From contig SLLG01000024.1 of assembly GCA_007134215.1 (NCBI GenBank), forward strand, positions 1-35,451: 35,451 nucleotides of DNA, written 5' to 3'. The position numbers and the translations under genes are program-made. The stretch is from Opitutales bacterium. GTDB lineage: Bacteria; Verrucomicrobiota; Verrucomicrobiia; Opitutales; Oceanipulchritudinaceae. Below the pieces are notes generated by a model. It was given only the letters and a program-made list of their open reading frames with translations. It did no database searches and was not told where the DNA came from. Shown here in pieces: positions 2 through 24,612 of the stretch; the first letter of the stretch is position 1; each line of letters begins with the position of its first letter.

Positions 2-3000
2 CGGATTTATGTGGACGAAGACCTCACGCTCTCCGCGGGCACGATTTACAGTGACTCCGGGCCGGGCAGCTGGTCACGCAACCTGTGGCTGCGCAACAGC
101 GGCACGACGCTCACGCTCGGCGCGGGGGCAACCCTGCGCGGGGGTCTGCTCGACGTCCGGCGCACGGGATCGGGCGAGCGCTTCTTCGTCAACGAAGGGC
201 TCGTCTCGGCGGACGAGGACGGCGAGGAGATCCGCTTCTACAGCGATGTCGAAGTCACCAATACAAGCACGCTCGAAGCGCGCGATGGCGGCCGCCTCAG
301 GATCGACAACATGGCCGCCAATACCGGCACCATATTCTCCGGCGCGGGATCACGCATCCTCATCGACGACGATTTCACAACCGGACCCTCGACGGAGCTG
401 CAGGCCGGAATCCCCGGCGCGCCGGTTCCGCTGCAAGTCAACGGCACCGCCTCGCTCGGCGGCACGCTGACGATTTCGACGCACGGGGACTACATTCCGA
501 GTCTCGGCGACAGCTTTGTTCTGCTGGAAGCCGACAACATCGACGGGGCCTTCGATACCATTGAGATCCCACTCGTCGACGGACAGCCTTTGTTTGAAGT
601 CGCGGTCAACGACACGCGCATCGAAGTGACGGTCGCCGATCTCGCACCGCTGGTCGTCGTTGGCCCGACCCCCGCCGACGGCGCGACGAACATCGTTATC
701 AACCCCACGCTCAGCTGGACGCGCGGCGCGTTCGCCGAGTCTTATGAGGTCTACCTCGGCACAAGTCCGTCCCCCGGCGGCGGCGACCTCGTGGCGACGA
801 CGACGGCCACGGAATTCGATCCCGATGTTCTCGATTGGGACACAACCTACCATTGGCGTGTCGACGCCGTGAACGAGTTCGGCACGAGCACCGGCACGGT
901 GTGGTCCTTCACGACCCGCCCGGAACCCGATCCGGATCTCGGCACGGTGTGGATTGCGGCTGACGGCCTGTGGACGGACGGCGCCAACTGGACTTCCGCT
1001 CCGCATTATCCTGACAACGACTCCCCCGATCCGGGCGTGACCTACGATGTCGTTATTGAAGCAAGCGGCGAATACACCGTCACGCTCGACGCCGATGTGA
1101 CTGTCGACCGGCTCATCATCGACGCGCCGGGGGCCACCCTGCGCCACACCTCCGGCACGCTCACCGTCCTCGACTCCGTTCAGGTCCTGCGCGGCACCTA
1201 CCAAATGGACGGCGGCACCCTGCGCGAGGCGACGCTCTCCGTCGGCGGCGAAGGCAACATCGCCATGACGGCCAACAGCCGCTTCCATGACGTGACACTG
1301 CATGAGTCGATTGATTTTTCGATACCTAACAGCCGCATCCTTTACGTTTCGGGCGACCTCACCCTCGACGGGGCCACGCTCATCCTCGCCAGCACGGGCT
1401 CAAACACCCGCCTGCGCTTCGACAACGGCGAGGAACAGAACATCCTCGGCAACGGCGACATCATCTACGACGGCAGCGGGTCCGACTCGAACAACCGCCT
1501 CGAGTCGTGGAACACGGGTACGCACGTCATCATTAGCGCCGGGATCACGGTGCGCACGGGTACCCGCGGCGGCTGGTTCGGTTCCTCGCGGATGGTGACG
1601 AACAACGGCACGATCATCGCCGATGCGCCAGGACGGGTCTTGGCCATCAACACGAACGAACCGTTCGCGAACTACGGCCTGCTCGAGGTTTCGGGCGGCT
1701 CGGCCATGGTCATCGAGGAACTGAGCGGCAACCTCAACACCGCGACGATCACCGGCGCGGAAACTTCCCTCGACATTGATGGCGACTACACGGTTAACGA
1801 GGCGCTCTCTGTCCCGACCGACGCCACGCTCTCGCTCTCCGGCGACTGGACCGCCGCCGCCGATATCACGGCGACCGGCGCGACGCTGCTCCTCAGCGGA
1901 TCTTGGATCAACACCGCCGTACTCTCCGCGACCGACAGCATGGTGCAGCTCGGCGGCAATTTTACGCTCGCCGACATCGGCACGTTCAACCGCGACGGAG
2001 GCACTGTGCGCCTCACCGGCACCCTCGAAAACGAGGGCACGTCGCTCACGCTCGACACCTCCACGGGCGACTGGGATCTCCACGGCGGGCGTATTCGCGG
2101 CGGGACCCTCGCCTACGACGACGCTTCTCTCGCCGTCACGGCGAACAGCACGCTCGCCGATGTCACCCTCGATTCCAGTGTCGACCTCGCCATCCCGAAC
2201 AGCCGCATCCTCACCATCGAAGGCGGCCTGACGCTGGACGACGCCGTCGTCCGCCTCGTGAGCACCGGCTCGAACACGCGCCTGCGCTTCAGCGACAACG
2301 ACGAGCAGAGCATTCTCGGCGAGGGCGAGATCGTCTTTGACGGCAGCGGCTCCGACAGCAACAACCGCATCGAGTCCTGGAACTCGGGCACGCACCTTTT
2401 CATCGCCGAAGGCATCACCGTGCGCACGGGTGAGCGTGGCGGCTGGCTGGGCTCCTCGCGCCGGGTGACCAATCTCGGGCGCATCCTCGCCGACGCGCCG
2501 GGGCGCACTCTTTCCATCAATCCCAATGAGCCGTTCCACAACGAGGGCAGCATCGAGGCGCTTGAGGGAGCGCGGATCGACATCGATAATTTCGAGGCCG
2601 ATACCGGCACGCTTCACGCCGACGCGGGCAGCCGCATTGTCGTCAGCGGCGATTACGCATCCGGTGAGTCGCTCACACTCCTTGTCGCCGGACCCGAATC
2701 CCCGGACTACGGGCGTCTCACCGTCAGCGGCGAATTCTCGCCCGCCGGCCACCTTGAGGTCGCTTTCGCGGGCGGCTACCTGCCGGATGTCGGCGAGCGC
2801 TACGACATCATCGACGCCGGCGCTGTCATCGGAGAATTCGAGACAGTGAGCCTTCCTTCCGTTCCCGGCGAAACGGAGCCGGAGATCATCTACGACGCCG
2901 ACCTCATCGCCGTTCTCGTCTCCGGTTCGCCGCCCGCCCCGGTGGTGAACCCGAGCCCCTCCGACGGTTCGGAGAACCGGCCCATCGACACCTTCCTCTC

Positions 3001-6000
3001 ATGGTCCGACGGCGGCCTCGCGAGCAGCTTCGACGTCTACTTCGGCACCAACTCGGTCCCCGGCGTCGACGAGTTCCGCGGCAACCAAGTGGGATCGTCC
3101 TACAGTCCGGGTACGCTTGATTACGCCACGACCTACTACTGGCGTGTCGACGCCCGCAACCAGAACGGAGTCATGGAGGGTCCGGTATGGTCCTTCACGA
3201 CCCGCCCCGAGCCCGCCTCTATTTCCGGCGTCGTGTGGCACGATGAAGACGGCAACGGCGAAATCGGTCCCGGTGAGGAGCCGCTCGAAAGCTGGACCGT
3301 GTATTTGGATCTCAACAACAACGGTGTGCGCAACGCGGGCGAGCCCCGCGTCTTCACCGATAGCAACGGCAGCTTCAGTTTCACTGACCTCATGCCGGGC
3401 GAATACGTCGTGCGGCAGATCGTGCAGAACACATGGGCGCAGACGTCTCCCCCAGACAATGCTGCGCAGGTCGTCACGATTGAAGCCGGCGAAGACCTTG
3501 CCGATGTCAACTTCGGTAACCGACAGACCGGCCCCGTCGTGACCAACGTCGCTCTCAGCCGCAGTCAGCCCGTCCCGGCCTCGGACAACCTGCGCATTAC
3601 CGTGCGCTTCGACCGCACGATGGACACAGGTGTCGAGCCGACGCTCGAGTTTCAGCCGCAGTCCGGGCAGGACGCACCGGTCGTTCCGGGGGGCGGTGAG
3701 TGGCTTTCGCAAAGCGGCTCCAACAACGCCTACCGCACACCCGCGATTTCGATCACGCCAGGTATGGACGGCGAACATGTACTCCACCTCACGGGGGCAA
3801 CCGATCCCGCGGGCCGCGTGGGCGATCCCGCCGATATTTTCAACGTCACCGTCAACGCCACGCCGCCGCCGGTCGTGACGCCGGTCGTCACCGAAATTGC
3901 GCCGAACTCACTCACCATCGGATGGGGCGACTACGAGGCACCGGACGATATCAACCTCTTCCGCATTTACCTTGAGGAGGTGCCCTTCACCAGCCTTTCC
4001 GGTCTCAACGCCTTCGACGGACGGGGCGCGTCGGCGCGTTCCTACACCTTTACCGGCTTGGATTTGGATACGGAATACCACGTCGCCGTGGGCGCGGTCG
4101 ACAGCGTCCTTAATATGGACCGCGACGTCGCCTCGGTCCCGGTCATCATCGAAAGCGACGTGCCGCCGGCGGTCGTGCCGGGCCTCTCCCGTCCCCGCAT
4201 CGGCGAAGCCATGCTTGACTGGGGTCACTACGCTACGGGCGATCTCATCGGATTCGCGGGCTACCGGGTCTACATGGAGGACGAGGCTTTCTCTGATGTC
4301 ACGGGCCTCGCACATGTGGCCGAAGCGGGCCCGGGCGAAACGGGCCTGCTCGTCAGCGGTCTCGACCGCTCGCAGGAGCTTCACATCGCGGTGGTTCCCT
4401 TCAACCGCCTCGGCGAATACGTCAGCGAAGTGACGACGGTCCTCTGGCGCGACATTCTGGCTGATCCAATTACGGAGGACCTTACGCTCGGCGCCGAGGG
4501 CGAAACGCTCGAAGTCCCGGCTCCGCTCATTGTGCAGGAGGGCGCCGTCCTCACCATACCCGCCGGGGCGACCCTCGTCTTCGCCGAAGAGGCGGGTATC
4601 GTTGTCGAGGACGGCGCGCTGCGCTCGCTCGGCACGGAGGCGAAGCCCGTGCACCTCACGACTGCGGACGAATCCGGACGCGGCAACTGGGCAGGCGTCA
4701 CGCTCGGTGAAAACGCGGGCGCTTCCGAACTCTACCACACTTGGATCCGCCACGGCGGCGGTCTCCTTCTCGACGGCGCCGTCAATCCCATGCTGCACGG
4801 CCTGCGCCTTGTCTGGAACGAGCCCTACGGCCTGCGCGTGCGCGACGGTGCCGTTGCAAGCGCGGACGCGCTCTTCGTCGCGCTCAACGAAACCGGCGTC
4901 TCCGTCGACGGCGGCAGCTCGCTCACTGTCTGGCAGTCCGTCATCAAAAACAACACGGCCAACGCCTCCGCCGGGACCGGCGGTTTCCTTGACGCCCGCG
5001 ACAACTGGTGGGGCTTCGACGATCCCGACGACATCGCGGACACCATCGTCGGTACGGTCGATATCTCCGATCCCCTCGACAACGAGCCCGTTCTTGCCGC
5101 TGTCGCCGCGCCCGCCGACGGCGCGACCCAGACCGGTTCGCAAGAGATCGAATTGATCCTCAACAGTCCCAACGCTTTGTCCCACCGGGCGAGCGAGGAC
5201 TCGACCTTCAGCTCCGTTTTCTTCGAGGACATGGATCCGGACGACGGCGCGGGCGACCTCTACCGCACAGGACCGTTTGCCTTCCCGTTCACTTTGTCCG
5301 ACGGCGGCGGCGTCAAGACGGTGTATATCGAGCTGCGGAGCGTGACCGGCGGGGTCTCCGATCCCATGGTTTTTGAAATCGAATACATCACCGAAGGTCC
5401 GGTGATCACCGCTTTCAGCCTCTCCGAGGGCGATGAATTCACGCGTCCTGTGGAGGTCTCCGGTTCCGCCGAGGCCGCGCTCGGGCTCGCCGAAGTCGGC
5501 TTCTATGTCGCCGATGAGCCGGTCCTCACTGGCGACGGCCCGGACCTCGCGGGCCAGTGGGACTTCCGCGGCATGTCGTCCGGTATCTACCGTGTCCGTT
5601 TCGAGGCCGTGGACACGGCAGGGAATCTCGCCACGCAGGAACTCAATGTCCGCCTAAGTCCCGAGCCTCCGCCCACGCCCACGCTCGACAGCCCGTCCGA
5701 CGGCGACCTCTTCGCCGACGCGGTGATTACCGTCTCCGGCACCGCCGAGCCGGGTATCGAAGTGCGCCTCACGCGCAACGGCAGTGTCGCGGGCAGCACC
5801 CACGCCGCGCCCGACGGCACCTATTCATTCCCGGACGTCACGCTGGCGGAGGGAAGCAACGCCCTCGTTGCCCGCGCCCGTGATGTAGTGGGATCCAGCC
5901 CGTCCAGCCCGGTCGTTGTCAACCTCGACACCGTGCCGCCCGCACCGCTTGTTATCGAATCCGCCGAATACCTTGTGCGGTGGGGCATCGAAGTGGTCTG

Positions 6001-9000
6001 GAGCCATCCCCCGGAGGGCAAACAAGCCGGGCGTTTCCGCGTCCTCTGGCACGACGAGCCGTTCACGAGCGCTTCCGAGGCGAGCGGGCAGGGCGACTTG
6101 GTCGAAGAATTCGACTACCGCATCACGGACATCCCTGACGGGGATTACTATGTCGCCGTGGTCGGTGTCGACGCAGCGGGGAACGTGAGCGAACTCTCCG
6201 ACCTGCTCGAGGTTACCTACGACAGCACGCCGCCCGCCTTCACGGTGGAATACGACTCGCCCATACCCGTCGGGCCGGGCGACCTCGGCATCACCCTCAC
6301 GGTGAGCGAGACCCTGCGCTCCACGCCGAGTCTCACCATCCAGCCGGCGAACTTTTCGGTGCCCGTCCACGTCTCCCTCAGCGAGACCGGGCCCAACACC
6401 TATTCCGGAACCTACGCGGTGTCGCCGCTCTCCGGCTCAACCGGCGTAGCTGCCGTGAAGGTGTCCGGACGCGACCTCGCGGGCAACAGCTACTCGGGCC
6501 CGCCCGACGGGCCGGAGCTGATCTTCGATGTCGAGCGCCCGACGGCCGCCATCGCGGTCGACCTCGCGCAGCCGATACAAGTCCTCGGCGGCAATGTCGT
6601 CGCAGGCATCACGCTGACGACGAGCAAATCCGTACCCGCCGCGCCCGAGCTGACGTTTGAGCCGCCGGAGGGTTCCAGTGTCGTCCCCACCCTGAGCGGG
6701 GAGGGCACCGAATGGCAGGGCGAACTCATTCTCACTCCAGATATGGGCACGGGCAAGGGGACGTTCGTCTTTTCCGCGACGGACGCCTTGGGCAATTCCG
6801 GCAACGCCATCACGGAGGGCGACGAGTTGGAAATCTACAACACCGAGGCCGCGCCGCCGCCGCCGCGGCCTACAGGCGTGGAGGCGACGACCCTGCCCGG
6901 CGGGGCCATCGCCGTGCAGTGGCAGCCCTCGGAGGGAGCGGAGGTCTACCACCTCTACCGGGCCGAAGGCGCGGTGGGCGGGACGCCGACCAACCGCGTG
7001 GCGACGCTCGACGATCTTTCCGAATTGATCCTCATCGACACGCCCCCCGGGGACGGGATCTACCGCTACGTCGTGACGGCGGAGCGCCTTGGCTCCGAGA
7101 GTGACCCCTCTGTCTCCCGTGCGGCGGAGTCGGACCGCACGCCGCCGGAGCCGCCGGAGAACCTCACGGTCGAACTCACGCTTTCCGGTCGCGTCGAGAT
7201 TTCATGGAACGCTCCCTCTTCCGGGGAGACGCCGGAGTTCTACTTCCTCTACCGCAGCACGACCGGCGAATCGCCGGAGGACCACCTGCGCGCTTACCGC
7301 AATGCCGGCACCGTGAACGACGCGCCGCCGCGCGGTTTGGTCACCTATTGGGTGTCGTCGTCCGACGCCGTGGGTAACGAAAACCTCAGCGAGCCCGCCA
7401 GCATCGAGATGTTTGTCGGTGCTGTCTCCGGCCTGCGCGCCGTGCGCCCGCACGGTTCCCAGGCGTTCCTCCAGTGGACGGGTGAAGACAGCGGGGCCGT
7501 CGGCTACAACGTCTACCAAAACGGCGATTCCCTTACGCCGGACGCCCCCGTGGCCGATGAGTTCCTGCCCCTCTCCATCGCCGCCGACGATCCGCCTGCC
7601 ACTTTTATCGTGCGGGCGGTGGACTCCGAGGGCCGCGAGAGCGCGGCGCGCGCCGTCACGCTCTTTCCCGTCGATGTGGGGATTGGATACAATCCCGACG
7701 GTGTCGGCGACGACCGCGACCTGATCCGCGATTATTTCGAGAATTACGAGGCGCGTGCCGTCAATAATGCGGAGGAGAACTGGCGCTTTGACGAGATCGA
7801 GATCACCCGGCGCGTTTCCGGTTCCGATCCCGTGAGCTTTACCCGCGCGCTAGGTGATGACGAGGACACGGTCGCGGCTGAAGACAGCGGTGCCTGGTCG
7901 ATCATCTTCCCCGGACCGACGCGGTCCGTCACGCAAACGGAGTTCGATGTCGAGCTGCGCCGTGTCGAGGAAGACGGCTCGACCGCCGTGCACCGCCGCA
8001 CCTTCACGGGTCCGGAGAGTGGCCGCGTTTCCGGTCAGGTAAGCGTCTCGGTCGACGCCGCCCCGCTCGCCGGCGGATTGAGTGACTTCACCGCGCGCTT
8101 TCACAACCGCGGATACGCTGACATGGATATTCTCCTCGTGCGGCGGGGGGGGCAGGATCCGGGCAACCTCATTCTCGAGGTCCGCGACGAGGTCGGCAAC
8201 GTCGTCAACTCCGTTGCTTTCGACCGGCCGCTCACCGGTATGTCGGTCGCGCCCGACGGCCGCGGCTTCTTCCGTCTCGCTCCGGGCGAATCGCGGGAGA
8301 TCGTCTTTGAGGACGTTCTCATTCCCGAGCAGTTGGGCGAGACCGGGTTCGCCCGCATTCGTGTCATATCCGGCGACATCTACCACAACCTCGGCGGAGC
8401 GGACGAACGCGTGTCCGGACCCTTGTCGGGTTCCATGTCGACGAATCTCACGGAGACGCCCTACTACGGTGTGCTCGAATCCACCGCACCGGGCTTTGCC
8501 GACGACCAGCCGGTTACCCTTACGGGCGAGGCGCGCGACCGCGACACCGATGCTCCCGTTCCGGATGCCGAACTCAACATCGGTATCCAGATCCGGGGCT
8601 ACCACTGGTTTGAAACTGTCACTACCGACGGCAGCGGGGCCTTCACCTTCGTCTTTGAGCCGCCGCCGGGTCTTGCTGGCAGCATCAATTTCTGGGCCGC
8701 GCACCCCGATGTCGTGGATATCCTCAACCAAGCGGAGGTGTCGCTCCTGCGCATGCTCTCCAATCCGAGCCGAGGTTCCATCCGCATGTCGAAGAACGAC
8801 ACGCTCGACTTCGACATCCAACTCATCAATCCGGCTGAGATCCCGCTCACCCTCGAGGATATCTCGGCCCAGGCCTACATCGTGGATATCGACGACGAGG
8901 GCGAAGAAATCCTTACGGAGATCGACACGCTCACCGCGTCCCTTGCACAGCCGATGCCCGACGTATTGGACGGCAACCGCCGACAGCGCGTGAATCTGCG

Positions 9001-10861
9001 CCTCCAGTCGGATCTTGACGCACCCAACTTCGCGCGTATTGAAATCCGCTTCTCCAGCGAGGAGGGCGCCGGGGTGACTTTCCGGGGCGACGTCACGCTC
9101 CTCGAGCCGGTACCCATTCTCCGCGTGCAGTCGCCTTCGCGCGGCTATGTAGACCGCTCGCTCGACCGCGGCGATATCCGTAGCCAGCGCGTCGTTATCG
9201 AAAACGCGGGTCTCCGCGCCCTCGAGGGCGTGGAATTGATCCCGCCGCAGGACGTCGACTGGATGCAGGTCAACCTGCCCGCCGACGAGGACGGTATCAT
9301 CCGGCTTCCGGACCTCGCCGTGGGCGACGACATCGAGTTCCAGGTGGTCTACACCCCTCCGCTGGACACCGGCCTCGGCTTTTACGACGATGTCATTATT
9401 GTGCGCGGCAGCAATGCCGTGGCGGACTTTGAGATGGGAGTCTTGGCCGAAATCACCTCGAACCTGTCGGGCGACGCCTTGTTTGCCGTCACCAACATCC
9501 TCGACCAAGAGGTGCCCAACGCGAGGTTGCGCTTGCGCAATACGACAAACCGCCTCGAGCGCGGGCCGTACCTCACCGATTCCGTCGGCGAAGTCCTCGT
9601 GGAGGATCTGCAGGAAGGCCGCTGGACGTGGCAGGTGACCGCTCCGGGCCATGCCGCCGCCACGGGCACGGTCGACATCGAGGCCGACCAGGTGACGCTC
9701 GTCGAGCCCGAGCTGAGCAAGAGCCTAGTCACGGTGACGTTCGACGTTGTACCCGTGCCTTTCACCGACCGCTACGACATCCGTCTCGAAATGACCTTCG
9801 AGACACGGGTGCCGCTGCCGGTGCTGGTCATGACACCGCCGAAGTACAGCTTCGAGAATGTCGAGCCGGGCTTCGAGACGACGGTCATGTTTGAAATCCG
9901 CAACGAGGGGCTCGTCAGTATCGACAACGTTGAGATCACGGGCAGCCGCACGGGACTCTCCATGAAGGAGCCGCTCATCGATTTCATTCCGGAGCTGCGG
10001 CCTGAGCAGATTGTGCAGATTCCCGCGCGCATCCGGCTGTTGACGGAAGAGGAGGCCGAGCAGGGTATCCAGCCCGCGGGCCTGCCGCCGCTTATTCCGG
10101 GGTGCGGCACCCCCGATCCACGGGCGTTCGCGCAGGGGCTCAATGAGATTCTCCGCCTCGCCGGCGAAGGCAATGCGATCAAGGCGTCCGGCGAAGGCGT
10201 CGATATCGCTACCGGGGCACTCTCTGTCATGATTGTCTACGCCGCCATCGCCAACTCCGGCTTGGGCAACTTCCTCGGCGAACTGATCAACTGTGCCACG
10301 GGCGGGCTCTCCTTCGGCAGCTCCCCCGCGCGGGGCACCGGCACGCGGGGCCGTCCCGGCCGCGCGCCGCCGCGCTTCGAGCCCTCCGGCAACGGTTGCT
10401 TCCTGCCCGATACGCCGGTGCGCCTTGCCGACGGCGGCATGAAGCCCATCGCGGAACTGCGGCCGGGTGACGTCGTGCGCTCCGGCGCAGCCGCAGAGGC
10501 TGTGTCCGAGGTGCGCAACCTTTTCGAGCTGGAGTCCGACGACCTGCGTCGGCTTGCCCTGCGTTGCCTCGACGGGCGGCGCGAGGCCCGCGAGCTGATG
10601 GTCACCGGCGCCCACCGCCTATGGGTCGACGGCAAGGGATGGACGCACGTGCGTGAAATCGAGGCCGGACATTGGCTTTCCGCCGAGGGCGGCGGGCACT
10701 GGGAGGTTGCCTCCACCGACAAGGTTGAAGGCACCCACACGGTCTACAACTTCCAACTCAAAGACGACCGCGGTTTCTACGCCGACGGGGTTCTCGCCGA
10801 GGATCTCTGCGGTGGCGCGTTTGTCGATCTGAGCACGGCACGGGAGGTGACGGCGAAATGA
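2..10861 (+). CDS. Giant secreted multidomain protein with C-terminal Hint domain (5' partial)
   Basis: The frame is open from base 2, so the gene begins upstream; the GTG at 11 is only the first in-window candidate start. Residues here count from that GTG. Visible in order: beta-helix/autotransporter-like repeats (1-210); FN3-like domain (about 214-306); a second, larger beta-helix block (about 310-970) containing a tandem duplication; FN3 (976-1069); an SdrD B-like domain (1071-1175, DxNxNG-type acidic motifs); FN3 pair (1290-1477); NosD-like beta-helix with an NWWG motif (1482-1695); Ig-like and FN3 modules to about 2550; carboxypeptidase-regulatory-like and CARDB-like modules (about 2830-3320); and a Hint domain from Cys3463 (motif CFLPDTPV, then TGAH at 3532-3535) to the end. 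Likely an extracellular or cell-surface adhesin or scaffold; the ligand is unknown. The stop overlaps the next start (ATGA), implying translational coupling. The Hint C-terminal HN pair appears replaced by Glu3597-Asp3598. Confidence 0.9.
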   Translation, partial: RIYVDEDLTLSAGTIYSDSGPGSWSRNLWLRNSGTTLTLGAGATLRGGLLDVRRTGSGERFFVNEGLVSADEDGEEIRFYSDVEVTNTSTLEARDGGRLRIDNMAANTGTIFSGAGSRILIDDDFTTGPSTELQAGIPGAPVPLQVNGTASLGGTLTISTHGDYIPSLGDSFVLLEADNIDGAFDTIEIPLVDGQPLFEVAVNDTRIEVTVADLAPLVVVGPTPADGATNIVINPTLSWTRGAFAESYEVYLGTSPSPGGGDLVATTTATEFDPDVLDWDTTYHWRVDAVNEFGTSTGTVWSFTTRPEPDPDLGTVWIAADGLWTDGANWTSAPHYPDNDSPDPGVTYDVVIEASGEYTVTLDADVTVDRLIIDAPGATLRHTSGTLTVLDSVQVLRGTYQMDGGTLREATLSVGGEGNIAMTANSRFHDVTLHESIDFSIPNSRILYVSGDLTLDGATLILASTGSNTRLRFDNGEEQNILGNGDIIYDGSGSDSNNRLESWNTGTHVIISAGITVRTGTRGGWFGSSRMVTNNGTIIADAPGRVLAINTNEPFANYGLLEVSGGSAMVIEELSGNLNTATITGAETSLDIDGDYTVNEALSVPTDATLSLSGDWTAAADITATGATLLLSGSWINTAVLSATDSMVQLGGNFTLADIGTFNRDGGTVRLTGTLENEGTSLTLDTSTGDWDLHGGRIRGGTLAYDDASLAVTANSTLADVTLDSSVDLAIPNSRILTIEGGLTLDDAVVRLVSTGSNTRLRFSDNDEQSILGEGEIVFDGSGSDSNNRIESWNSGTHLFIAEGITVRTGERGGWLGSSRRVTNLGRILADAPGRTLSINPNEPFHNEGSIEALEGARIDIDNFEADTGTLHADAGSRIVVSGDYASGESLTLLVAGPESPDYGRLTVSGEFSPAGHLEVAFAGGYLPDVGERYDIIDAGAVIGEFETVSLPSVPGETEPEIIYDADLIAVLVSGSPPAPVVNPSPSDGSENRPIDTFLSWSDGGLASSFDVYFGTNSVPGVDEFRGNQVGSSYSPGTLDYATTYYWRVDARNQNGVMEGPVWSFTTRPEPASISGVVWHDEDGNGEIGPGEEPLESWTVYLDLNNNGVRNAGEPRVFTDSNGSFSFTDLMPGEYVVRQIVQNTWAQTSPPDNAAQVVTIEAGEDLADVNFGNRQTGPVVTNVALSRSQPVPASDNLRITVRFDRTMDTGVEPTLEFQPQSGQDAPVVPGGGEWLSQSGSNNAYRTPAISITPGMDGEHVLHLTGATDPAGRVGDPADIFNVTVNATPPPVVTPVVTEIAPNSLTIGWGDYEAPDDINLFRIYLEEVPFTSLSGLNAFDGRGASARSYTFTGLDLDTEYHVAVGAVDSVLNMDRDVASVPVIIESDVPPAVVPGLSRPRIGEAMLDWGHYATGDLIGFAGYRVYMEDEAFSDVTGLAHVAEAGPGETGLLVSGLDRSQELHIAVVPFNRLGEYVSEVTTVLWRDILADPITEDLTLGAEGETLEVPAPLIVQEGAVLTIPAGATLVFAEEAGIVVEDGALRSLGTEAKPVHLTTADESGRGNWAGVTLGENAGASELYHTWIRHGGGLLLDGAVNPMLHGLRLVWNEPYGLRVRDGAVASADALFVALNETGVSVDGGSSLTVWQSVIKNNTANASAGTGGFLDARDNWWGFDDPDDIADTIVGTVDISDPLDNEPVLAAVAAPADGATQTGSQEIELILNSPNALSHRASEDSTFSSVFFEDMDPDDGAGDLYRTGPFAFPFTLSDGGGVKTVYIELRSVTGGVSDPMVFEIEYITEGPVITAFSLSEGDEFTRPVEVSGSAEAALGLAEVGFYVADEPVLTGDGPDLAGQWDFRGMSSGIYRVRFEAVDTAGNLATQELNVRLSPEPPPTPTLDSPSDGDLFADAVITVSGTAEPGIEVRLTRNGSVAGSTHAAPDGTYSFPDVTLAEGSNALVARARDVVGSSPSSPVVVNLDTVPPAPLVIESAEYLVRWGIEVVWSHPPEGKQAGRFRVLWHDEPFTSASEASGQGDLVEEFDYRITDIPDGDYYVAVVGVDAAGNVSELSDLLEVTYDSTPPAFTVEYDSPIPVGPGDLGITLTVSETLRSTPSLTIQPANFSVPVHVSLSETGPNTYSGTYAVSPLSGSTGVAAVKVSGRDLAGNSYSGPPDGPELIFDVERPTAAIAVDLAQPIQVLGGNVVAGITLTTSKSVPAAPELTFEPPEGSSVVPTLSGEGTEWQGELILTPDMGTGKGTFVFSATDALGNSGNAITEGDELEIYNTEAAPPPPRPTGVEATTLPGGAIAVQWQPSEGAEVYHLYRAEGAVGGTPTNRVATLDDLSELILIDTPPGDGIYRYVVTAERLGSESDPSVSRAAESDRTPPEPPENLTVELTLSGRVEISWNAPSSGETPEFYFLYRSTTGESPEDHLRAYRNAGTVNDAPPRGLVTYWVSSSDAVGNENLSEPASIEMFVGAVSGLRAVRPHGSQAFLQWTGEDSGAVGYNVYQNGDSLTPDAPVADEFLPLSIAADDPPATFIVRAVDSEGRESAARAVTLFPVDVGIGYNPDGVGDDRDLIRDYFENYEARAVNNAEENWRFDEIEITRRVSGSDPVSFTRALGDDEDTVAAEDSGAWSIIFPGPTRSVTQTEFDVELRRVEEDGSTAVHRRTFTGPESGRVSGQVSVSVDAAPLAGGLSDFTARFHNRGYADMDILLVRRGGQDPGNLILEVRDEVGNVVNSVAFDRPLTGMSVAPDGRGFFRLAPGESREIVFEDVLIPEQLGETGFARIRVISGDIYHNLGGADERVSGPLSGSMSTNLTETPYYGVLESTAPGFADDQPVTLTGEARDRDTDAPVPDAELNIGIQIRGYHWFETVTTDGSGAFTFVFEPPPGLAGSINFWAAHPDVVDILNQAEVSLLRMLSNPSRGSIRMSKNDTLDFDIQLINPAEIPLTLEDISAQAYIVDIDDEGEEILTEIDTLTASLAQPMPDVLDGNRRQRVNLRLQSDLDAPNFARIEIRFSSEEGAGVTFRGDVTLLEPVPILRVQSPSRGYVDRSLDRGDIRSQRVVIENAGLRALEGVELIPPQDVDWMQVNLPADEDGIIRLPDLAVGDDIEFQVVYTPPLDTGLGFYDDVIIVRGSNAVADFEMGVLAEITSNLSGDALFAVTNILDQEVPNARLRLRNTTNRLERGPYLTDSVGEVLVEDLQEGRWTWQVTAPGHAAATGTVDIEADQVTLVEPELSKSLVTVTFDVVPVPFTDRYDIRLEMTFETRVPLPVLVMTPPKYSFENVEPGFETTVMFEIRNEGLVSIDNVEITGSRTGLSMKEPLIDFIPELRPEQIVQIPARIRLLTEEEAEQGIQPAGLPPLIPGCGTPDPRAFAQGLNEILRLAGEGNAIKASGEGVDIATGALSVMIVYAAIANSGLGNFLGELINCATGGLSFGSSPARGTGTRGRPGRAPPRFEPSGNGCFLPDTPVRLADGGMKPIAELRPGDVVRSGAAAEAVSEVRNLFELESDDLRRLALRCLDGRREARELMVTGAHRLWVDGKGWTHVREIEAGHWLSAEGGGHWEVASTDKVEGTHTVYNFQLKDDRGFYADGVLAEDLCGGAFVDLSTAREVTAK
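1268..1690 (+). repeat. Internal tandem duplication, copy 1 (beta-helix module)
   Basis: Encodes residues from about 420 of the giant protein. It shares many blocks in the same order with copy 2, which starts 870 bases downstream: IPNSRIL, STGSNTRLRF, DGSGSDSNNR, ITVRTG and RGGW. The copies are clearly paralogous but diverged, so the duplication is not recent. Confidence 0.85.
2138..2560 (+). repeat. Internal tandem duplication, copy 2 (beta-helix module)
   Basis: Second copy of the module at 1268-1690, offset by exactly 290 codons. It is followed by an EALEGARIDIDN-type segment and an FN3 domain. That combination also recurs at the start of the window (residues about 85-306), so the larger evolutionary unit is beta-helix plus tail plus FN3. 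Confidence 0.85.
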
Positions 10862-13800
10862 ACATACTCTACGAAAGCAAACCCATGCGAGTTTTTCGAT
10901 ACATCCGCGAAGCAGTCCGTTCGCACGCTGGAGGGCGCGGTTCCACCTGCGCCGCGTCCGGCCCGGTCGGAGGCGCGCCCTCCAAGGAGACCGTTGGCGC
11001 ACCGGCCCGCGGCACCTGTCCACCGCATGGCCTCGCTGAAGCTTCAGCCTACGTCTGGCCGCCCGCGGCCACAGGAAGTAGTAGCGCGAAGCTTCATCGA
11101 GCGACGGCCGCGCTTCGCCCACGCTCGTGGCTCCTCGGCGCACTCGCGCTACTTCTCGGCAGCTCCGGTGCTCTCGCCCAGCAGCAGTTCGCGGGCTGGT
11201 GCGCGCGTGTCAAAATCGAGATCGAGCAGGAACTCACCCTCGAGCGCATCGGCTTTGAAGCCACCCTCACGGTCACGAACAACGACGGCGAGGACGCCAT
11301 CACCGATTTTTTCGCCGAGCTGACGTTCGAGGATCCGGAGCGCCCGGGCGAGGACGCCTCCGACCTCTTCTTCGTGCAGCCGCCCACCATCGAGTCGGTG
11401 AGCAGCGTGGACGGCGACGGCGTCATCCAGCCAACGCGTACCGCCGTTGTGCGGTGGTTTATCATCCCCAAAATCGCGGCCGGCGGCGAGGATCCGCGCG
11501 GCAAGGAATACCGCGTGGGCTGCCGTCTCGCGGGCAAGCTCGGGGGTGCGGACATCCCCGAGGACAACATGATCGTCATCCCCGCCACGATCACGGTGCG
11601 GCCCGAGCCGCAGTTGGAGATTACGTATTTCCTCCCCCGCGACGTGCAGGCGAACAACCCTTTCACGGAGACCATCGAGAGTCCGGTGCCCTTCACGCTC
11701 GGTGTTCTTGTGCGCAACGCCGGGTTCGGCACGGCACGTGACCTGCAAATTGATTCGCAGCAACCCCGCATCGTCGACAATGCGCAGGGGCTCAACCTTG
11801 TCGCCCAGCTCCTTGGTTCGCGCGTGCAGGATTCCCCGCTCGACCGCGCCAGCCTGCTCGTCGATCTCGGCGACATCGAGCCGGGGCAGACCCGCAAGGG
11901 CGCATGGGACATGATCACGACGCTCTCCGGCGAGTTCATCGATTTCAACGCCACTTACACCCACGCTTCCGAGCTGGGCGGGGAGGAGACCTCGGTCATC
12001 ACTTCGCTCGACGCGCACTTCTTCGTGCAGGAGGTCCTCAACGACCAGCCGGGCCGCGACGAGATTCTCGATTTTCTCGCCGTCACCGACCGCAACGAGG
12101 ACCTCATTCCCGACGCCCTCTACGAGAGCGAGGGGAATGTTCTGCCTGTCAACCACCTCACCCAGACGGAGGTCGTCGAGGGGCTCGACGGAACCCTCGA
12201 ATTTGTTCTCGGGGTCAACGCCGACTTCGAGGGGTGGGGCTACATCCGCATCGAGGATCCCGCGCAGGGCCGCTATGATATTGAGAGCGTGACGCGCTCA
12301 GACGGGCGCGAAATTCATCCGCGCAATGCGTGGACGAGCCTGCGCTACGACGAGATCACGAATCAGCGCCTCGACCGGTTCCACATCTTCGACCTCGTCG
12401 ACGTGGGCCAGTACTACGAGTACACGGTGGTCTTTGCTGCGCCGGAGGCAGACACCGATCCGCCGGAGACAGAGATTCACTTCGCAGGCGACTTCACGCG
12501 GGTAGGCGGCACCGTTTACGTCACGCGCGACACGCAGATCTATTTCATGGCCGAGGACGACAGCCCGGTGAGCATGTTCTATAAGATCGACGACGAAGAA
12601 GATTTCCGCCCCGCGCTGCCCTTCCAGTTGTCGGAACCGGGCAACTACACGATCACCTACTTCTCGCGCGACGCTTTCGGCAATGAAGAGGCGCCGAAGA
12701 CGCAGCTCGTCGTGCTCTCGGATGCGCCTCCCGGATTCGATGTCTTCGATACCGGCGATGTCCAGCTCGTGCAGGCGGGCGATACGCTCTCCGTGCGCCC
12801 CTCGGAGGCTGACCTCGGCTTCATCCTCGGCGCTTCGCCCTTCCCGGTTGAGGGAACGGTCGATGTCTTCCGCGGAGTTGTCGCGTGGCCGCAAGTCAGC
12901 GGAGTGCCGCCGTCGCCGACTTCCTCGGACGAGGCGACGCTCTTCGTGGGCGGCACGCACGCCGACTACTATCTCTACCGGCTCGACGGCGGTGCATGGT
13001 CGGCGGAGCGGCCCGTCGCCGAGCCCATTGAGCTGTCGGACCTCTCCGGCAATGTGTTGGTCGAGATCGCCGCACGCTCACGCCACGGCGGCTACGGCCC
13101 CGCCGGGGAGGGCGTCGCCGTTATCCCGGAGGAGCGCATCCTCGCCTTGGAGTGGACGGTCTCGGGTGGTGTGCCCGCTTTTGCTCTCGGCGGCATGCCG
13201 CCGATTCCCGCGCGGGAGACGGCGGCGGAAATCTTCGTCTCCGCGCCCGGCCTCGAACTTTACCGCTGGACGCTCGACGATAGCTTCTTCCGTCCCGAGG
13301 AAGATCCCTCTGTCCCCATTGTGCTCGACAATATTCCGCAGGGAGACCGCACTCTCAGTCTCGCCGGGCGTGTCGGCGGCGATTGGCAGGACACCGCCTC
13401 GCCCAGCAGCCTGCCGTTCCTCGCCGATCCCATGTATGGGGGCGATTTCTCGGAGTTGTCGGTGGTGCGCACGATCGCACTCGGCGAAGTGTCCGGTCCA
13501 GAGGTTCCGCTCACATGGAACGGGCTCGGCGATGATGACCGCCCCGTCCCGTCGGGCTGGTACACCGTCCGTGTGACCCTCTCCGATGACCTTGGCCGTG
13601 AGAGCTACCGCACCCGCCTCGTGGAAGTACGCAACATCGCGGAGAGTCCCGACCTCCTTGCCGCCGCTGAAGTCGGCCCGTCCCGTCCGTCGGCACGCGG
13701 TGACTGGGTGGTTTGGCAGCACCGCGAAGACGGTCCGTGGAACATCCGCGCGCGAAACCTTGCTTCCGGCGGCACCGCAGTGGCGGTGACCTCCGCTTCG

Positions 13801-15093
13801 CGCGACCAGACCCGCCCGCACACCGACGGCCGCCATGTCGTCTGGCAAGGCCGCAGCTCAAGCGGCACATGGGATGTCTGGGCGCGTGACCTCGCCGACG
13901 CCGGCGCCGTTCCGGTGCGCCTGGCCGAGGATGCCTCCGCCAATAACACCCGCCCGGTCGTGGATACACCGTGGGTGGTGTGGCGCGAGCGCGGCGTGGC
14001 TGATGCCGACGCCCCGTGGCAACTGGTCGCCCACAATATGGACACGGGTGAAACCTTTGCCGTGCACCCCGGTCCCGCCGACCAGGGAGAAGCCGCCATC
14101 CAGTCGGGCCGTGTCGTGTGGCGCGACCAACGTGATGTCGGTCCGGGCGAAATCTACTTTGCCGACCTCGAAACAAAGGCAGTCCGGCGCATCACCCAAA
14201 TGACCGAGGGGCAGTTCCATCCGGCGGTCTTCGGCCACTGGATTGTCTGGCAGGACACCCGCCATGGTGTGCTCGATATTTATGGGTACGACTTCCTGCG
14301 CGACGCTGAGGTCCGCTTGACGGACACGCCGGAAAACGAGGCCCTGCCCATCCTCGATGGCTACTGGATGGTCACGGAGGAAGACGGCGCGGGCTTCGGC
14401 ACGGGCAACTTCCGCCTCGTTAATCTGGAGGCCGGAGTGTCCGCGCCACTCACCAACGCGCCCACTCCGAAATCGCATCCCGGCATCGCAGCTGGCCACT
14501 TTGTCTGGCTCGAGGAAACGGCGCAGGGCCGCGAAATCCGCGCCGCGCGCCTGCCCGCCATGCAGGCCGTCTTCGCGGACAACAACGCCGTTGTCGTCAC
14601 GGAGGCATTGGTGGAGCGCTTCGACACCGCCTATGCGCTTCTCGAAGCGTGGGCCGCCGAAGCCAATGTGGGTGCCGTCGGCCGCTACGTGAGCCTTGCT
14701 CCCGAAGTCGAACGCGAGACCGCCGCTTGGGAAGGCGGCGCCGCCACCGGCGACGATTTCCCGCTGGAGGCGGGTGACTGGATCTGGGTGCGCTTCGACG
14801 GTGCCCGCCTCGTCGATCTCGGCGGGCGGGAGACGTCGCCGCTCGACCTCGCCGGCGGCGTGAATTCGATCGGCTATACCGCCTTTCCTTCCGGCTTCCG
14901 TGTTTCGCGCATGGTTGAACAACTGGGCGCCGCGAATGTCGCCGCCGTGCGAATGCTCGACTCCCGCTCCGGGCGCTGGATGGCCGTAACGGTCGACGAC
15001 GGTCGTCTCGTCGGCCCCGACTTCGCCATCCCGGAGACGGCATTGCTTTTGGTGGAAATGAATGCCCCGGTCACGGGCTGGACCCCTGAATGA
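10858..15093 (+). CDS. Secreted beta-sandwich / beta-propeller protein, translationally coupled to the giant
   Basis: 1,411 aa. The ATG overlaps the stop of the giant gene (ATGA), and a strong Shine-Dalgarno (GGAGGTGA, 10843-10850) lies 7 bases upstream. The signal-peptide hydrophobic core is at residues 91-105 with a likely cut after ALA (107). It is preceded by an abnormal n-region of about 90 residues translated from a palindromic repeat. The mature part begins with a CARDB-like region (WCARVKIEIEQ, about 114-380). Then come Ig-like modules, a FlgD-like Ig segment (LTWNGLGDDDRPVPSGWY, about 880), and a TolB/WD40-like propeller with recurring VVWQ/VVWR strands (about 935-1235). A C-terminal domain (about 1290-1411) follows. 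From memory, single-chain homologues carry this block downstream of modules like those at the end of the giant, so this looks like the detached C-terminal half. Function unknown; extracellular. Confidence 0.85.
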   Translation: MNILYESKPMRVFRYIREAVRSHAGGRGSTCAASGPVGGAPSKETVGAPARGTCPPHGLAEASAYVWPPAATGSSSAKLHRATAALRPRSWLLGALALLLGSSGALAQQQFAGWCARVKIEIEQELTLERIGFEATLTVTNNDGEDAITDFFAELTFEDPERPGEDASDLFFVQPPTIESVSSVDGDGVIQPTRTAVVRWFIIPKIAAGGEDPRGKEYRVGCRLAGKLGGADIPEDNMIVIPATITVRPEPQLEITYFLPRDVQANNPFTETIESPVPFTLGVLVRNAGFGTARDLQIDSQQPRIVDNAQGLNLVAQLLGSRVQDSPLDRASLLVDLGDIEPGQTRKGAWDMITTLSGEFIDFNATYTHASELGGEETSVITSLDAHFFVQEVLNDQPGRDEILDFLAVTDRNEDLIPDALYESEGNVLPVNHLTQTEVVEGLDGTLEFVLGVNADFEGWGYIRIEDPAQGRYDIESVTRSDGREIHPRNAWTSLRYDEITNQRLDRFHIFDLVDVGQYYEYTVVFAAPEADTDPPETEIHFAGDFTRVGGTVYVTRDTQIYFMAEDDSPVSMFYKIDDEEDFRPALPFQLSEPGNYTITYFSRDAFGNEEAPKTQLVVLSDAPPGFDVFDTGDVQLVQAGDTLSVRPSEADLGFILGASPFPVEGTVDVFRGVVAWPQVSGVPPSPTSSDEATLFVGGTHADYYLYRLDGGAWSAERPVAEPIELSDLSGNVLVEIAARSRHGGYGPAGEGVAVIPEERILALEWTVSGGVPAFALGGMPPIPARETAAEIFVSAPGLELYRWTLDDSFFRPEEDPSVPIVLDNIPQGDRTLSLAGRVGGDWQDTASPSSLPFLADPMYGGDFSELSVVRTIALGEVSGPEVPLTWNGLGDDDRPVPSGWYTVRVTLSDDLGRESYRTRLVEVRNIAESPDLLAAAEVGPSRPSARGDWVVWQHREDGPWNIRARNLASGGTAVAVTSASRDQTRPHTDGRHVVWQGRSSSGTWDVWARDLADAGAVPVRLAEDASANNTRPVVDTPWVVWRERGVADADAPWQLVAHNMDTGETFAVHPGPADQGEAAIQSGRVVWRDQRDVGPGEIYFADLETKAVRRITQMTEGQFHPAVFGHWIVWQDTRHGVLDIYGYDFLRDAEVRLTDTPENEALPILDGYWMVTEEDGAGFGTGNFRLVNLEAGVSAPLTNAPTPKSHPGIAAGHFVWLEETAQGREIRAARLPAMQAVFADNNAVVVTEALVERFDTAYALLEAWAAEANVGAVGRYVSLAPEVERETAAWEGGAATGDDFPLEAGDWIWVRFDGARLVDLGGRETSPLDLAGGVNSIGYTAFPSGFRVSRMVEQLGAANVAAVRMLDSRSGRWMAVTVDDGRLVGPDFAIPETALLLVEMNAPVTGWTPE
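10929..11072 (+). repeat. Palindromic element translated inside the signal-peptide n-region
   Basis: Contains an 11-bp perfect inverted repeat, TGGAGGGCGCG (10929-10939) and CGCGCCCTCCA (10974-10984). A second hairpin, TGGCCG-CCCG-CGGCCA, lies at 11057-11072. The stretch encodes low-complexity residues (about 24-72) unlike the rest of the protein. It resembles intergenic repeats I recall from Opitutae genomes, but no second copy of this element was found in the window. The limits of the element are approximate. Confidence 0.6.
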
Positions 15094-15106
15094 GGAGATT
15101 TGGACT

Positions 15107-15961
15107 ATGAAAATCTGGATACCATTGATTTTGGCAATCGCCTCGGCCCTGCCCGCGGCGGCGGCTGACGGCGTCTCCGCGCCCGACCTCGCCGCCCGTC
15201 TGGCGGAAGGGGAGGGCGTCGCCCTCATCGACATCCGCTCCAACGGCGAGTTCCGCGCGAACCATATCCCCGGTGCCTTGAATATGCCCGCGCGGGTGCT
15301 TGACGCACGGCGGCTGCCCTCGTCGCGGGCTGTGGTGGTCTATGACGACGGCCTCGGGCGGCACGACGCCCGTGCCGTGGCCGAAGCGCTCCGCGCCGAA
15401 GGCCGTGAGAACGCCGATTGGCTGCGCGGCGGCTTGGCGGCGTGGGAATCCGCCGCGCGGCCCACGACGAAGGAGGCCGGATTTGATGCCGACCACGTGC
15501 CCGGAATCACCTACAACAATCTCGTGCGCTCCGGCGGGCGCGACATGGTCGTGATGGACATTCGCACGCCGCGGACCGCCCCCGCGCCGGAGCCCGGTAC
15601 CTTTGGTGTCGCGGGCGACGGGGTGGCGCTCACCGACCTCGGCGCGCTCGTGCCGCAGGCCCGCGTGGTCCGGCCCGCCGACGGGGCGGAGGGCGGCGGC
15701 GGTTTCGCACCCCAGGCCGCAGGTGTCGGCGCGGGTGTGCCTCGCGTCCAGCCGGACGATGACCTCATTGTTATCGTCGACGATGGCGACGGATCGGGAG
15801 AGGACCTCGCGCGTTCCCTGCGCGCCGCGGGCAACCGCCGCGTTGTCGTCCTCACCGGCGGCGAGACCATTCTCCGCCGCGAGGGCCGCCCCGGACTCGA
15901 ACGTCGGGGTATGGGCGCGCAGGAAGTCGAAGAAGCCCCCGAACAAGGAGGGAACGAGTGA
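15107..15961 (+). CDS. Secreted tandem rhodanese-like protein lacking catalytic cysteines
   Basis: 284 aa. The start at 15107 is chosen because GAGGAG (15093-15098) lies 8 bases upstream and the product then begins with a clean signal peptide (residues 1-20, cut after AAAA). An earlier in-frame ATG at 15062 lies inside the previous gene. Residues about 24-116 are a rhodanese fold: LIDIRSNGEF, then HIPGALNMP, then the loop VVYDDGLGRHDA, and finally WLRGGLAAW. The cysteine that carries persulfide in true rhodaneses is absent (loop YDDGLG, 79-84). A second degenerate domain follows (VVMDIRT at 148-154; loop VDDGDGSG at 224-231; VVVLTGG), also without Cys. Enzymatic sulfurtransfer is therefore unlikely; a structural or binding role in the exported operon is more plausible. 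It overlaps the next gene at TGATG. Confidence 0.85.
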   Translation: MKIWIPLILAIASALPAAAADGVSAPDLAARLAEGEGVALIDIRSNGEFRANHIPGALNMPARVLDARRLPSSRAVVVYDDGLGRHDARAVAEALRAEGRENADWLRGGLAAWESAARPTTKEAGFDADHVPGITYNNLVRSGGRDMVVMDIRTPRTAPAPEPGTFGVAGDGVALTDLGALVPQARVVRPADGAEGGGGFAPQAAGVGAGVPRVQPDDDLIVIVDDGDGSGEDLARSLRAAGNRRVVVLTGGETILRREGRPGLERRGMGAQEVEEAPEQGGNE

Positions 15962-17877
15962 TGATTTGCATACGATCCATTTTTTCACGGACATCAACCG
16001 TCATCCAAGGCGGTGAAGAATCACCGCACTCCATGGCGGGTGCCGCCCGCTGCGCTTTCCTTTCCCTCTCCGTCTTTCTCTTCTTCTCTGTTTCTCTCGC
16101 CGCCACCCCGAAAGCCGTCAACGTCGGAGCTGCGGAGTTCACCGTCTTCTGGGAGAGCGAAGTCTCCGGCGAGCCCGAGGTGCGCCTCTACACCGACGCC
16201 GGAGGCGCCGAAGACATCACCGCCGACCTGCGCCGCGAGGCCTTCCCGCTCGCCGCGCCGCTCTCGCTCTATGCCACAGGCGCGGAGCGGTTGGCCGCCG
16301 GGGATTTCAAGGATTCCATTCGCGGGCGCGGACTTATGACGGTTCGTGTCTCCGGGGTTTCCCCGGACACCAGCTACTTTATCGAAGCCGGTGTGCGCGA
16401 CGGGGAGGGGGCTTTCCATACCGCCGGAGACGATCTTGTCGAGGTGCACACGGCCGCCTCGACACCCTTCGTGCCCGATTTCCGGATCGCTGCTTTCACT
16501 TTCGAAGACGCCGCCGAGACGGGCTCCATCGCTGTTCTTTCGGCAGTCGGCGCGCGCTCGCCGCTCCTCGCCGTCGTGGGCGATGCCTCCGGAGGTTTGC
16601 CGCACGCCGTCTTTCCGCTCGGCGCGCTGGTGGACGACGCCACGGGCGAGCCCATGCCGCTCGACGGCACCCTGTCGTTCGAGGTTTCCCACTACCGCGG
16701 GGTCGACGACCGCGCCCTCATGGCCGATGCCGTGACGACCGACGGTGATTTCCGCGTCGCCGCGCTGACTACCCGCGCCTTCGAGATGGCGGTCGATGTG
16801 GATGTCGCCTATTTCCAGTTCGACCCCGTCGATGACCAGATGGCGGGTCAGCCTTTCATGGTGCGGGTGACGGCGCGCACGGGCGAGGGGTCCATCGCGG
16901 CGGACTTCGGGGGCACGCTCACGCTCGATTCCGACGGCCGCCTTGAAGCGGGCGCAACGAGTGCTGCTTTCGCCGCCGGTGTGCTGGAAGACCACGAGGT
17001 CATCATCGGCAACACGGGCGACTTCCGCCTCTTCGCCGCGACGACCGCTGTCGCCGCGACCGGTGAGAGTGATGTTTTCCGCGTCGCCACCGACTGGGAG
17101 AACTACGCCTCATTCTACAGCGATCCCGCGGCGGAGACCCGGAGCGAGCAGCGCCTCGCGGATCCGGACGAATCCGGCGTGCCCGCCCTCATGCGTTACG
17201 GCTTCGATATCGATCCCGGGACGGTCGGTCTCGGCGATGCCGTCGAGGTCGATGAGATTGTGGACGGCGACGAACGCTACGCTAGCATCACTTTCCGCCG
17301 CCTTCAGTATGCCCCCGACGTGCGCTATGTCGTGCATGGCACAAGCGAACTCAACGACTGGGAGACCCTCGCCGTCGTCGAGCCGGGCACGCCCGAATGG
17401 GTCACCGTCGAGGACGGTGTGCCCCTCGCCAACAGCGGCGACGGCCGCTTCCTGCGCGTCGGCGTGGTCGGCGACGGTGTCTACGAGTATTGGCGCGTCG
17501 GTGAATTCGCCCCCGCGCAGATTGACGACCCCGCTGTATCCGGGCCGGGGGCCGACCCGGGCGACCTCGGCGTCGACAACCGCACCCGCTATGCCCTCGG
17601 CATGAGTGGAATCGATCCGGACCTCGGCCTGCTTCCCTCCCGCACCGTCGTCACAGAAAACGGCGAATCCTACTACCGCCTGGACTTCAATCGCCTTCCG
17701 GTCGCCGACGATATCCTCTATGTCGTTGAAGCGACCTCGGACTATCCGAATTGGGACGAAATCGCCGTCATCGAGCCGGGCGAACCGGCGGAAGTTTCCG
17801 TGGTTGATTCCACGCCTATTCCTGAGCAAGGATACCGCATCATCCGCATGCGCATTGAACCCGTGCCCGAACCATGA
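15961..17877 (+). CDS. Secreted repeat protein with duplicated C-terminal module
   Basis: 638 aa from the ATG at 15961. A strong Shine-Dalgarno (AAGGAGG, 15945-15951) lies 9 bases upstream; a GTG at 15958 and an ATG at 16033 are alternatives. The hydrophobic signal core (residues about 32-46, ending SLAA) comes after about 30 residues that include a translated hairpin repeat. The middle contains Ig-like beta segments. The C-terminal 220 residues carry a duplicated module: a YGFDIDP / YALGMSGIDP segment, then YASITFRRL / YYRLDFNRL, then YVVHGTSELNDWE / YVVEATSDYPNWDE, then AVVEPGTPEWVTV / AVIEPGEPAEVSV. Modules of this style are common near the C-terminus of secreted Verrucomicrobia proteins. 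No catalytic motif was recognised. The stop overlaps the next start (ATGA). Confidence 0.85.
   Translation: MICIRSIFSRTSTVIQGGEESPHSMAGAARCAFLSLSVFLFFSVSLAATPKAVNVGAAEFTVFWESEVSGEPEVRLYTDAGGAEDITADLRREAFPLAAPLSLYATGAERLAAGDFKDSIRGRGLMTVRVSGVSPDTSYFIEAGVRDGEGAFHTAGDDLVEVHTAASTPFVPDFRIAAFTFEDAAETGSIAVLSAVGARSPLLAVVGDASGGLPHAVFPLGALVDDATGEPMPLDGTLSFEVSHYRGVDDRALMADAVTTDGDFRVAALTTRAFEMAVDVDVAYFQFDPVDDQMAGQPFMVRVTARTGEGSIAADFGGTLTLDSDGRLEAGATSAAFAAGVLEDHEVIIGNTGDFRLFAATTAVAATGESDVFRVATDWENYASFYSDPAAETRSEQRLADPDESGVPALMRYGFDIDPGTVGLGDAVEVDEIVDGDERYASITFRRLQYAPDVRYVVHGTSELNDWETLAVVEPGTPEWVTVEDGVPLANSGDGRFLRVGVVGDGVYEYWRVGEFAPAQIDDPAVSGPGADPGDLGVDNRTRYALGMSGIDPDLGLLPSRTVVTENGESYYRLDFNRLPVADDILYVVEATSDYPNWDEIAVIEPGEPAEVSVVDSTPIPEQGYRIIRMRIEPVPEP
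16010..16027 (+). repeat. Hairpin repeat GCGGTGA-AGAA-TCACCGC inside a signal-peptide n-region
   Basis: A perfect 7-bp stem (16010-16016 with 16021-16027) and 4-base loop lies in frame between the start codon and the hydrophobic signal core of the 638-aa protein. Read on the other strand it gives GCGGTGATTC-TTCACCGC; a similar GCGGTGATTCACC occurs at 22544. It resembles a dispersed REP-like family. Confidence 0.55.
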
Positions 17878-24342: not shown

Positions 24343-24415
24343 AATGAGACTAGGAATGGGGCATCCAGACGCAGAGCACAAGCATATTTTCTTCAAGAAA
24401 TTAAATCGGGATTTC

Positions 24416-24444
24416 TTGACATGGGGGGTGCCGTGCCCTACACA
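24416..24444 (+). promoter_or_regulatory. Likely promoter upstream of the cupin gene
   Basis: TTGACA (24416-24421) is a perfect -35 box, followed by a 17-base spacer and TACACA (24439-24444) as a weak -10. It is preceded by an AT-rich stretch. Transcription to the right would give a leader of about 160 bases before the cupin start at 24613; no known riboswitch was recognised in it. Confidence 0.45.
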
Positions 24445-24453
24445 CGCTCCGTC

Positions 24454-24467
24454 CGTCCCATTGGACG
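24454..24467. repeat. Small perfect hairpin CGTCC-CATT-GGACG
   Basis: A 5-bp stem and 4-base loop in the 270-base gap between the divergent RAYT and cupin genes. It would fall in the cupin leader. It may be a REP-like remnant, since RAYT genes are often flanked by such palindromes, or a leader structure. Confidence 0.35.
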
Positions 24468-24612
24468 ACTGAACCAACTTGGGAGTGGGATGGTGCTGTG
24501 CTTTCGGCATTCCGGTGTCGATCAGTTGCCGCGCCGAACGGGTCTCACGGCCAGAGTGGTCAAGGCCTCCGCCCTGACTCCCGCATGACACACAACCCAT
24601 ACGATACGAGCC

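Follow-up and report, generated by a model that had tools for sequence, protein, structure and literature searches.

Putative one-sided Hint domains at the C-terminus of giant secreted proteins in Verrucomicrobiota

Known Hint domains include the splicing domains of inteins, bacterial intein-like domains (BILs), toxin-releasing domains and the autoprocessing domains of Hedgehog proteins. In Hedgehog, the Hint domain carries out an N–S acyl shift followed by intermolecular transfer to an outside nucleophile, and no splicing takes place (PMC9163320). Further, Cys400 of Hedgehog seems to be disulfide-bonded to the catalytic Cys258, and mutation of Cys400 blocks both steps (PMC4695875). In type-B BILs, block G is absent and cleavage is uncoupled from splicing (PMC4031507). 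Here, we describe a Hint domain at the end of a giant secreted protein encoded on a 35,451-nucleotide stretch of DNA from an Opitutales bacterium (contig SLLG01000024.1 of assembly GCA_007134215.1; hereafter the window), together with the clade to which this domain belongs. The window is one whole contig (G000:C77) of a draft genome of 4.44 Mb, which consists of 374 contigs and is 97% complete. As judged from sequence, the one-sided Hint is real, conserved and functional-looking, and we consider it probable that Hint domains of this clade cap giant secreted proteins of Verrucomicrobiota and perform chemistry at their N-terminal edge only.

The terminal domain of the giant protein

The Hint domain occupies the last ~155 codons of an open reading frame (ORF, positions 2–10861) that is open at the 5' contig edge, with 3619 residues visible. 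The real protein is therefore longer and residue numbers are arbitrary; the numbering used here (3463, 3532–3535 and 3597–3598) presupposes a GTG at nucleotide 11 as the start. In two full-length relatives, the G134 and G160 copies, the N-termini resemble signal peptides.

Single-sequence matches to Pfam were weak (Vint, 3.6e-4; Hint, 1.8e-3; PT-HINT, 0.014; Hint_2, 0.019) and all fell under the gathering cut-offs, with PT-HINT (PF07591) scoring 16.1 and 22.9 bits in two scans against a cut-off of 27.7. A profile of the family matched CthBIL4 (2lwy), a solved bacterial intein-like domain, with E=5e-24, and inteins and Hedgehog followed lower in the list. The AlphaFold2 (AF2) model had a mean predicted local confidence (pLDDT) of 88.7, reaching ~95 in the Hint domain, and low confidence in the region preceding it. 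The nearest structures found by Foldseek were BIL2 from the Tetrahymena BUBL locus, the gp41-1 intein, DnaB inteins and CthBIL4, with Hedgehog again lower; scores against BIL2, inteins and Hedgehog reached a TMq of 0.69 and a TMt of 0.83 with a probability of 1.0. Collectively, sequence and model place the window domain in the Hint superfamily, with an identity well beyond chance. A preliminary description of this DNA, made from the sequence alone, had recognized a Hint domain at the end of a giant protein, and the profile, model and fold matches bear this out. Phage origin of the domain was rejected, as a tblastn search with the Hint gave no match among 50,697 phage records.

The same description had assigned Cys3463 as the N-terminal nucleophile, residues 3532–3535 as the TxxH motif and Glu3597-Asp3598 as the pair standing where intein-like domains normally end in His-Asn. 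These residues and their coordinates (Table 1) are correct, and in the profile alignment the VHD/AED of the clade falls on the VHN of 2lwy. A search of the sequence for a true His-Asn elsewhere at the C-terminal end, which would have counted against the preliminary description, found none; the window protein contains no His or Asn past Glu-Asp.

Residues kept and lost across the clade

A scan of species genomes and 905 genome look-ups yielded 26 members including the window. In all 25 further members, too, the Hint stands at the end of a long ORF (7,111 residues at most); of the shorter member ORFs, only some were examined for truncation at a contig edge. The members come from the phylum of the window or from entries that bear the name Verrucomicrobia, Verrucomicrobiota, Pedosphaera or Akkermansia. 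One of them is a paralogue from elsewhere in the genome of the window (contig C213); its Hint has the ending VQD-QCGG, and the partner gene again comes next. The distribution is patchy: of 388 genomes sampled from the phylum, 22 carry a profile-matching Hint of any kind, and seven of these 22 carry the giant type. In a maximum-likelihood tree, the 26 members fall on one side of a branch with support of 99/97, opposite an outgroup of 14 Hints, drawn from this phylum as well as from Planctomycetota, Actinomycetota and Bacillota and all ending in VHN. Open-access papers, to which the literature search extended (subscription papers were not covered), contained no description of this family or its operon in Verrucomicrobiota.

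The catalytic residues of the N-terminal side are kept across the clade: every one of the 25 members that are complete on this side has Cys1, and all 26 have [TS]xxH. A Cys at +2 from the old Asn position is likewise invariant in the 26, followed by Gly in 25. Cys1 and TxxH are invariant despite only 25–40% identity among members, and the ratio of non-synonymous to synonymous substitution rates (dN/dS) of the Hint is 0.17–0.33 in five close pairs with unsaturated dS; a sixth pair, in which dS was saturated, was left out of this range. These values bear on the idea that the Hint is a silent remnant or a structural cap, for example what remains of a polymorphic toxin after loss of the toxin cassette. 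Although Hints of the same type precede toxin domains elsewhere (PMC3482391) and block G of the clade has decayed, such a remnant is distinctly unlikely given the invariant Cys1 and TxxH, the low dN/dS and the lack of toxin-sized sequence past the Hint in any member. Toxin release was rejected on the last of these grounds.

On the C-terminal side, the catalytic residues are eroded. At the old Asn position, the 26 members carry Asp (20), His (4) or Glu (2), and none carries Asn. The penultimate residue is His in 12, Arg in seven, Gln in six and Glu in one, the window, so that the penultimate His is gone in 14. The block-F His is kept in four members and lost in 22, compared with its presence in 11 of the 14 Asn-bearing outgroup Hints, as read from their sequences. 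The +1 residue is Leu in the window and Ser or Thr in only five of the 26. Block G is altered, yet its register can still be aligned. Thus, selection acts on the N-side apparatus, whereas the C-side apparatus has been dismantled, most simply through a single event before the clade diversified. It is this clade-wide selective loss, more than the single Glu-Asp of the window, that carries the argument. The junction change noted in the preliminary description is thus real, but what had been read as one altered protein is a family-wide condition, and only the exact Glu-Asp pair is peculiar to the window. Further, the C-terminal Gly, through which the preliminary description suggested that the exoprotein could be attached, is not generally conserved: Gly occupies the -1 position in 16 of 25 members, the others having Ala, Pro, Glu or Val, so the chemistry would not depend on a C-terminal Gly.

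Other Hints were observed in the same phylum. A short, non-giant Hint (L035, G101) likewise ends in VHD instead of VHN. A separate family (L027–L032, L042 and L044) comprises two or three back-to-back Hints, each ending in VHN, with only Lys-Gly or Lys-Gly-Gly-Gly before the next Cys; past the Hints come a Gly/Ser-rich stretch and a transmembrane helix. If these tandem Hints spliced, exteins of 2 to 4 residues would be left.

Proposed chemistry at the N-terminal edge

The clade Hint probably works like that of Hedgehog or of type-B BILs, by which we mean a likeness and not membership of either class. Following export of the giant protein, Cys1, activated by TxxH, would turn the preceding peptide bond (Gly-Cys in the window) into a thioester. 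With no Asn to cyclise and with both supporting His positions eroded, neither splicing nor C-terminal release would be expected. Indeed, the Hint is always C-terminal, and a stop codon follows 18–35 residues past it in all members, which leaves no substantial C-extein for splicing. The thioester would most likely be opened by water or a small thiol, freeing the exoprotein from a Hint stub of ~17 kDa; possibly, it is opened instead by an acceptor nucleophile, in which case the exoprotein would be joined to the acceptor via its C-terminus. Release is more likely than transfer because it requires no acceptor and fewer assumptions.

Two further elements may contribute to this chemistry. By analogy with the Cys400–Cys258 pair of Hedgehog, the invariant +2 Cys probably sets the timing by pairing with Cys1. 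A Cys is also found 29–44 residues N-terminal of Cys1 in all 25 members examined, and another near -98 in nearly all. Several members (L019, L021, L040 and L060) have only four Cys in their last ~300 residues, namely two before the linker, Cys1 and the +2 Cys, which fits two disulfides, one of them linking Cys1 to +2, as a parity argument only. Whichever of Asp, Glu or His has replaced the Asn may serve as a general base toward the incoming nucleophile; this role is suggestive since all three residues are capable of it.

Several observations weigh against one-sided processing. Inteins with a terminal Asp, Glu or Gln can splice (PMC4031507). A terminal Asp or Glu alone is hence no bar to splicing, and the case for one-sided processing depends on Asn, the penultimate His and the block-F His being lost jointly. 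The penultimate His is still kept in 12 of the 26 members, and at the position expected to match the intein Asp F:4 the window has Asn and the clade varies. Moreover, several Asn-bearing Hints of the polymorphic-toxin type have a Cys at +2 or +3, so the +2 Cys is not specific to the one-sided state. The splicing of such inteins, the Asp that is terminal in 20 of the 26 members and the 12 retained His would also suit a Hint that still splices or cleaves C-terminally through Asp/Glu cyclisation. However, we regard this activity as very unlikely: 14 members have lost the penultimate His and 22 the block-F His, His is the terminal residue in four, only five possess a Ser/Thr nucleophile at +1, and splicing would merely rejoin a tail of 18–35 residues. 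N-terminal cleavage or thioester formation without splicing, as the preliminary description had predicted, is accordingly kept as the best reading, with the intact N-side and purifying selection across the clade speaking for it and the Glu-Asp pair by itself being insufficient.

Operon context and comparison with known systems

The Hint gene is followed by three further genes on the same strand (Table 1). A gene 2 homologue of ~1330–1420 residues lies directly downstream of the Hint gene in every relative inspected. The four-gene order is the same in L005, L006, L008, L009, G160, G260 and G322, and gene 2 is additionally next to the Hint gene in G134, L007 and the C213 copy.

Table 1. Features of the giant gene and the genes downstream of it in the window
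Feature	Position	Strand	Remarks
Giant secreted protein, 5'-truncated ORF	2..10861	+	SdrD_B, Fn3, Big and CarboxypepD_reg domains precede the helical region, linker and Hint
Pre-Hint hydrophobic/helical region	10085..10300	+	Two Cys: 10103-10105 (-98 from Cys1) and 10292-10294 (-35)
Gly/Pro/Arg-rich linker	10301..10396	+	Last residue Gly(-1); most relatives also have a Gly-rich linker
Hint domain	10397..10804	+	Cys1 to Asp at canonical Asn position; profile match, AF2 model, fold search
Cys1	10397..10399	+	Predicted nucleophile of N–S acyl shift
Block B, TGAH (TxxH)	10604..10615	+	
Glu-Asp (GAG GAT) replacing His-Asn	10799..10804	+	Followed by Leu-Cys to 10810
Cys at +2	10808..10810	+	
Short post-Hint tail	10811..10858	+	Codons include Shine-Dalgarno-like GGGAGGTG (10842-10849) of gene 2
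Gene 2, 1411-residue secreted protein	10858..15093	+	Beta-propeller repeats and FlgD Ig-like domain; ATGA overlap with Hint gene
Gene 3, secreted rhodanese-like protein	15062..15961	+	Tyr where two of eight homologues have active-site-loop Cys
Gene 4, 639-residue secreted protein	15958..17877	+	Fn3-like in relatives

The motifs EV.. and KGGA. recur in the tails of relatives, and their recurrence fits a constraint imposed by the Shine-Dalgarno sequence of gene 2. A conserved tail acting as a sorting signal was rejected, since the motifs coincide with this Shine-Dalgarno sequence and so provide no evidence of protein function. Similarly, the rhodanese-like protein was considered as a sulfur donor that would convert the thioester to a thiocarboxylate. 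This mechanism was not accepted as a general one: only two of eight gene-3 proteins have Cys in the active-site loop, the other six having Tyr or Phe there, and a general role in sulfur transfer is therefore unlikely.

The tightly coupled and conserved partner gene can be taken to favour conjugation, in which the thioester would give the C-terminus of the giant protein to a specific acceptor (a Lys, a hydroxyl or a lipid), resulting in covalent anchoring or polymerisation. The best structural match, BIL2, links a ubiquitin-like protein to acceptor lysines through isopeptide bonds and needs no ATP to do so (PMC8616854), and Hedgehog transfers to cholesterol (PMC9163320). However, the C-terminal residue of BIL2 is Asn (its structure was solved for the construct C1A-N143A), and the clade has no sterol-recognition-like or other acceptor domain past the Hint, where there is just the tail of 18–35 residues, whose sequence is partly accounted for by the Shine-Dalgarno sequence of gene 2. 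Since, in addition, the -1 residue is not conserved and no candidate acceptor was found, conjugation is unlikely. A more elaborate version, a bacterial counterpart of Hedgehog, is quite improbable on the present sequences: an ATP-free C-terminal thioester on a secreted protein several thousand residues long would be passed to a dedicated acceptor, perhaps the conserved partner specified by the neighbouring gene or a lipid of the cell surface, with the former Asn position as general base and a disulfide between Cys1 and the +2 Cys as safety catch.

Elsewhere in the window, the giant gene contains a direct repeat of 300 nucleotides (1322–1621 and 2192–2491; 74% identical, 870 nucleotides apart), which is part of a duplicated beta-rich module. 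Directly past the four-gene operon, positions 17874–18650 encode a secreted protein whose end resembles a PEP-CTERM sorting signal (PEPRLIALAAGVLALTLVLRRRRNA). On the minus strand, positions 23335–24645 encode a 436-residue protein matching REP-associated tyrosine transposases, and positions 25172–27733 an 853-residue ORF that has no Pfam or NCBIfam match.

With its fixed position, conserved operon and clade-wide selective C-side loss, such a bacterial clade would amount to a natural experiment in which a splicing domain became a one-sided processing enzyme. It would further point to the way in which some of the largest proteins exported by Verrucomicrobiota are finished or anchored, and the clade may supply new N-cleaving Hints for protein chemistry.

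Among the known systems, PT-HINT (PF07591) shows a detectable sequence relationship with the clade, and the VHNxCG-type ending of some of its members differs mainly in the Asn. In contrast to PT-HINT, the clade has no toxin past the Hint, scores under the Pfam gathering threshold and has lost the Asn. By profile and fold, the closest relatives are the type-A BIL CthBIL4 (2lwy) and Tetrahymena BIL2 (6y75/6tmm); these terminate in His-Asn or Asn and are capable of splicing or conjugation, whereas the clade is without the Asn. The Hog domain of Hedgehog (e.g. 1at0) has in common with the clade the Hint fold, Cys1, TxxH, the absence of His-Asn and a conserved Cys close to where the Hint ends, and in both the host protein is secreted and the part processed, in the clade by prediction, is N-terminal to the Hint. 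Unlike Hog, the clade lacks a sterol-recognition region, ends in just a short tail and is without a demonstrated acceptor. Finally, type-B BILs, which are known here from publications, resemble the clade as bacterial Hints that lack a normal block G and are expected to cleave without obligatory splicing, but the clade Hints differ from them in being fixed at the C-terminus of giant proteins within a conserved operon.

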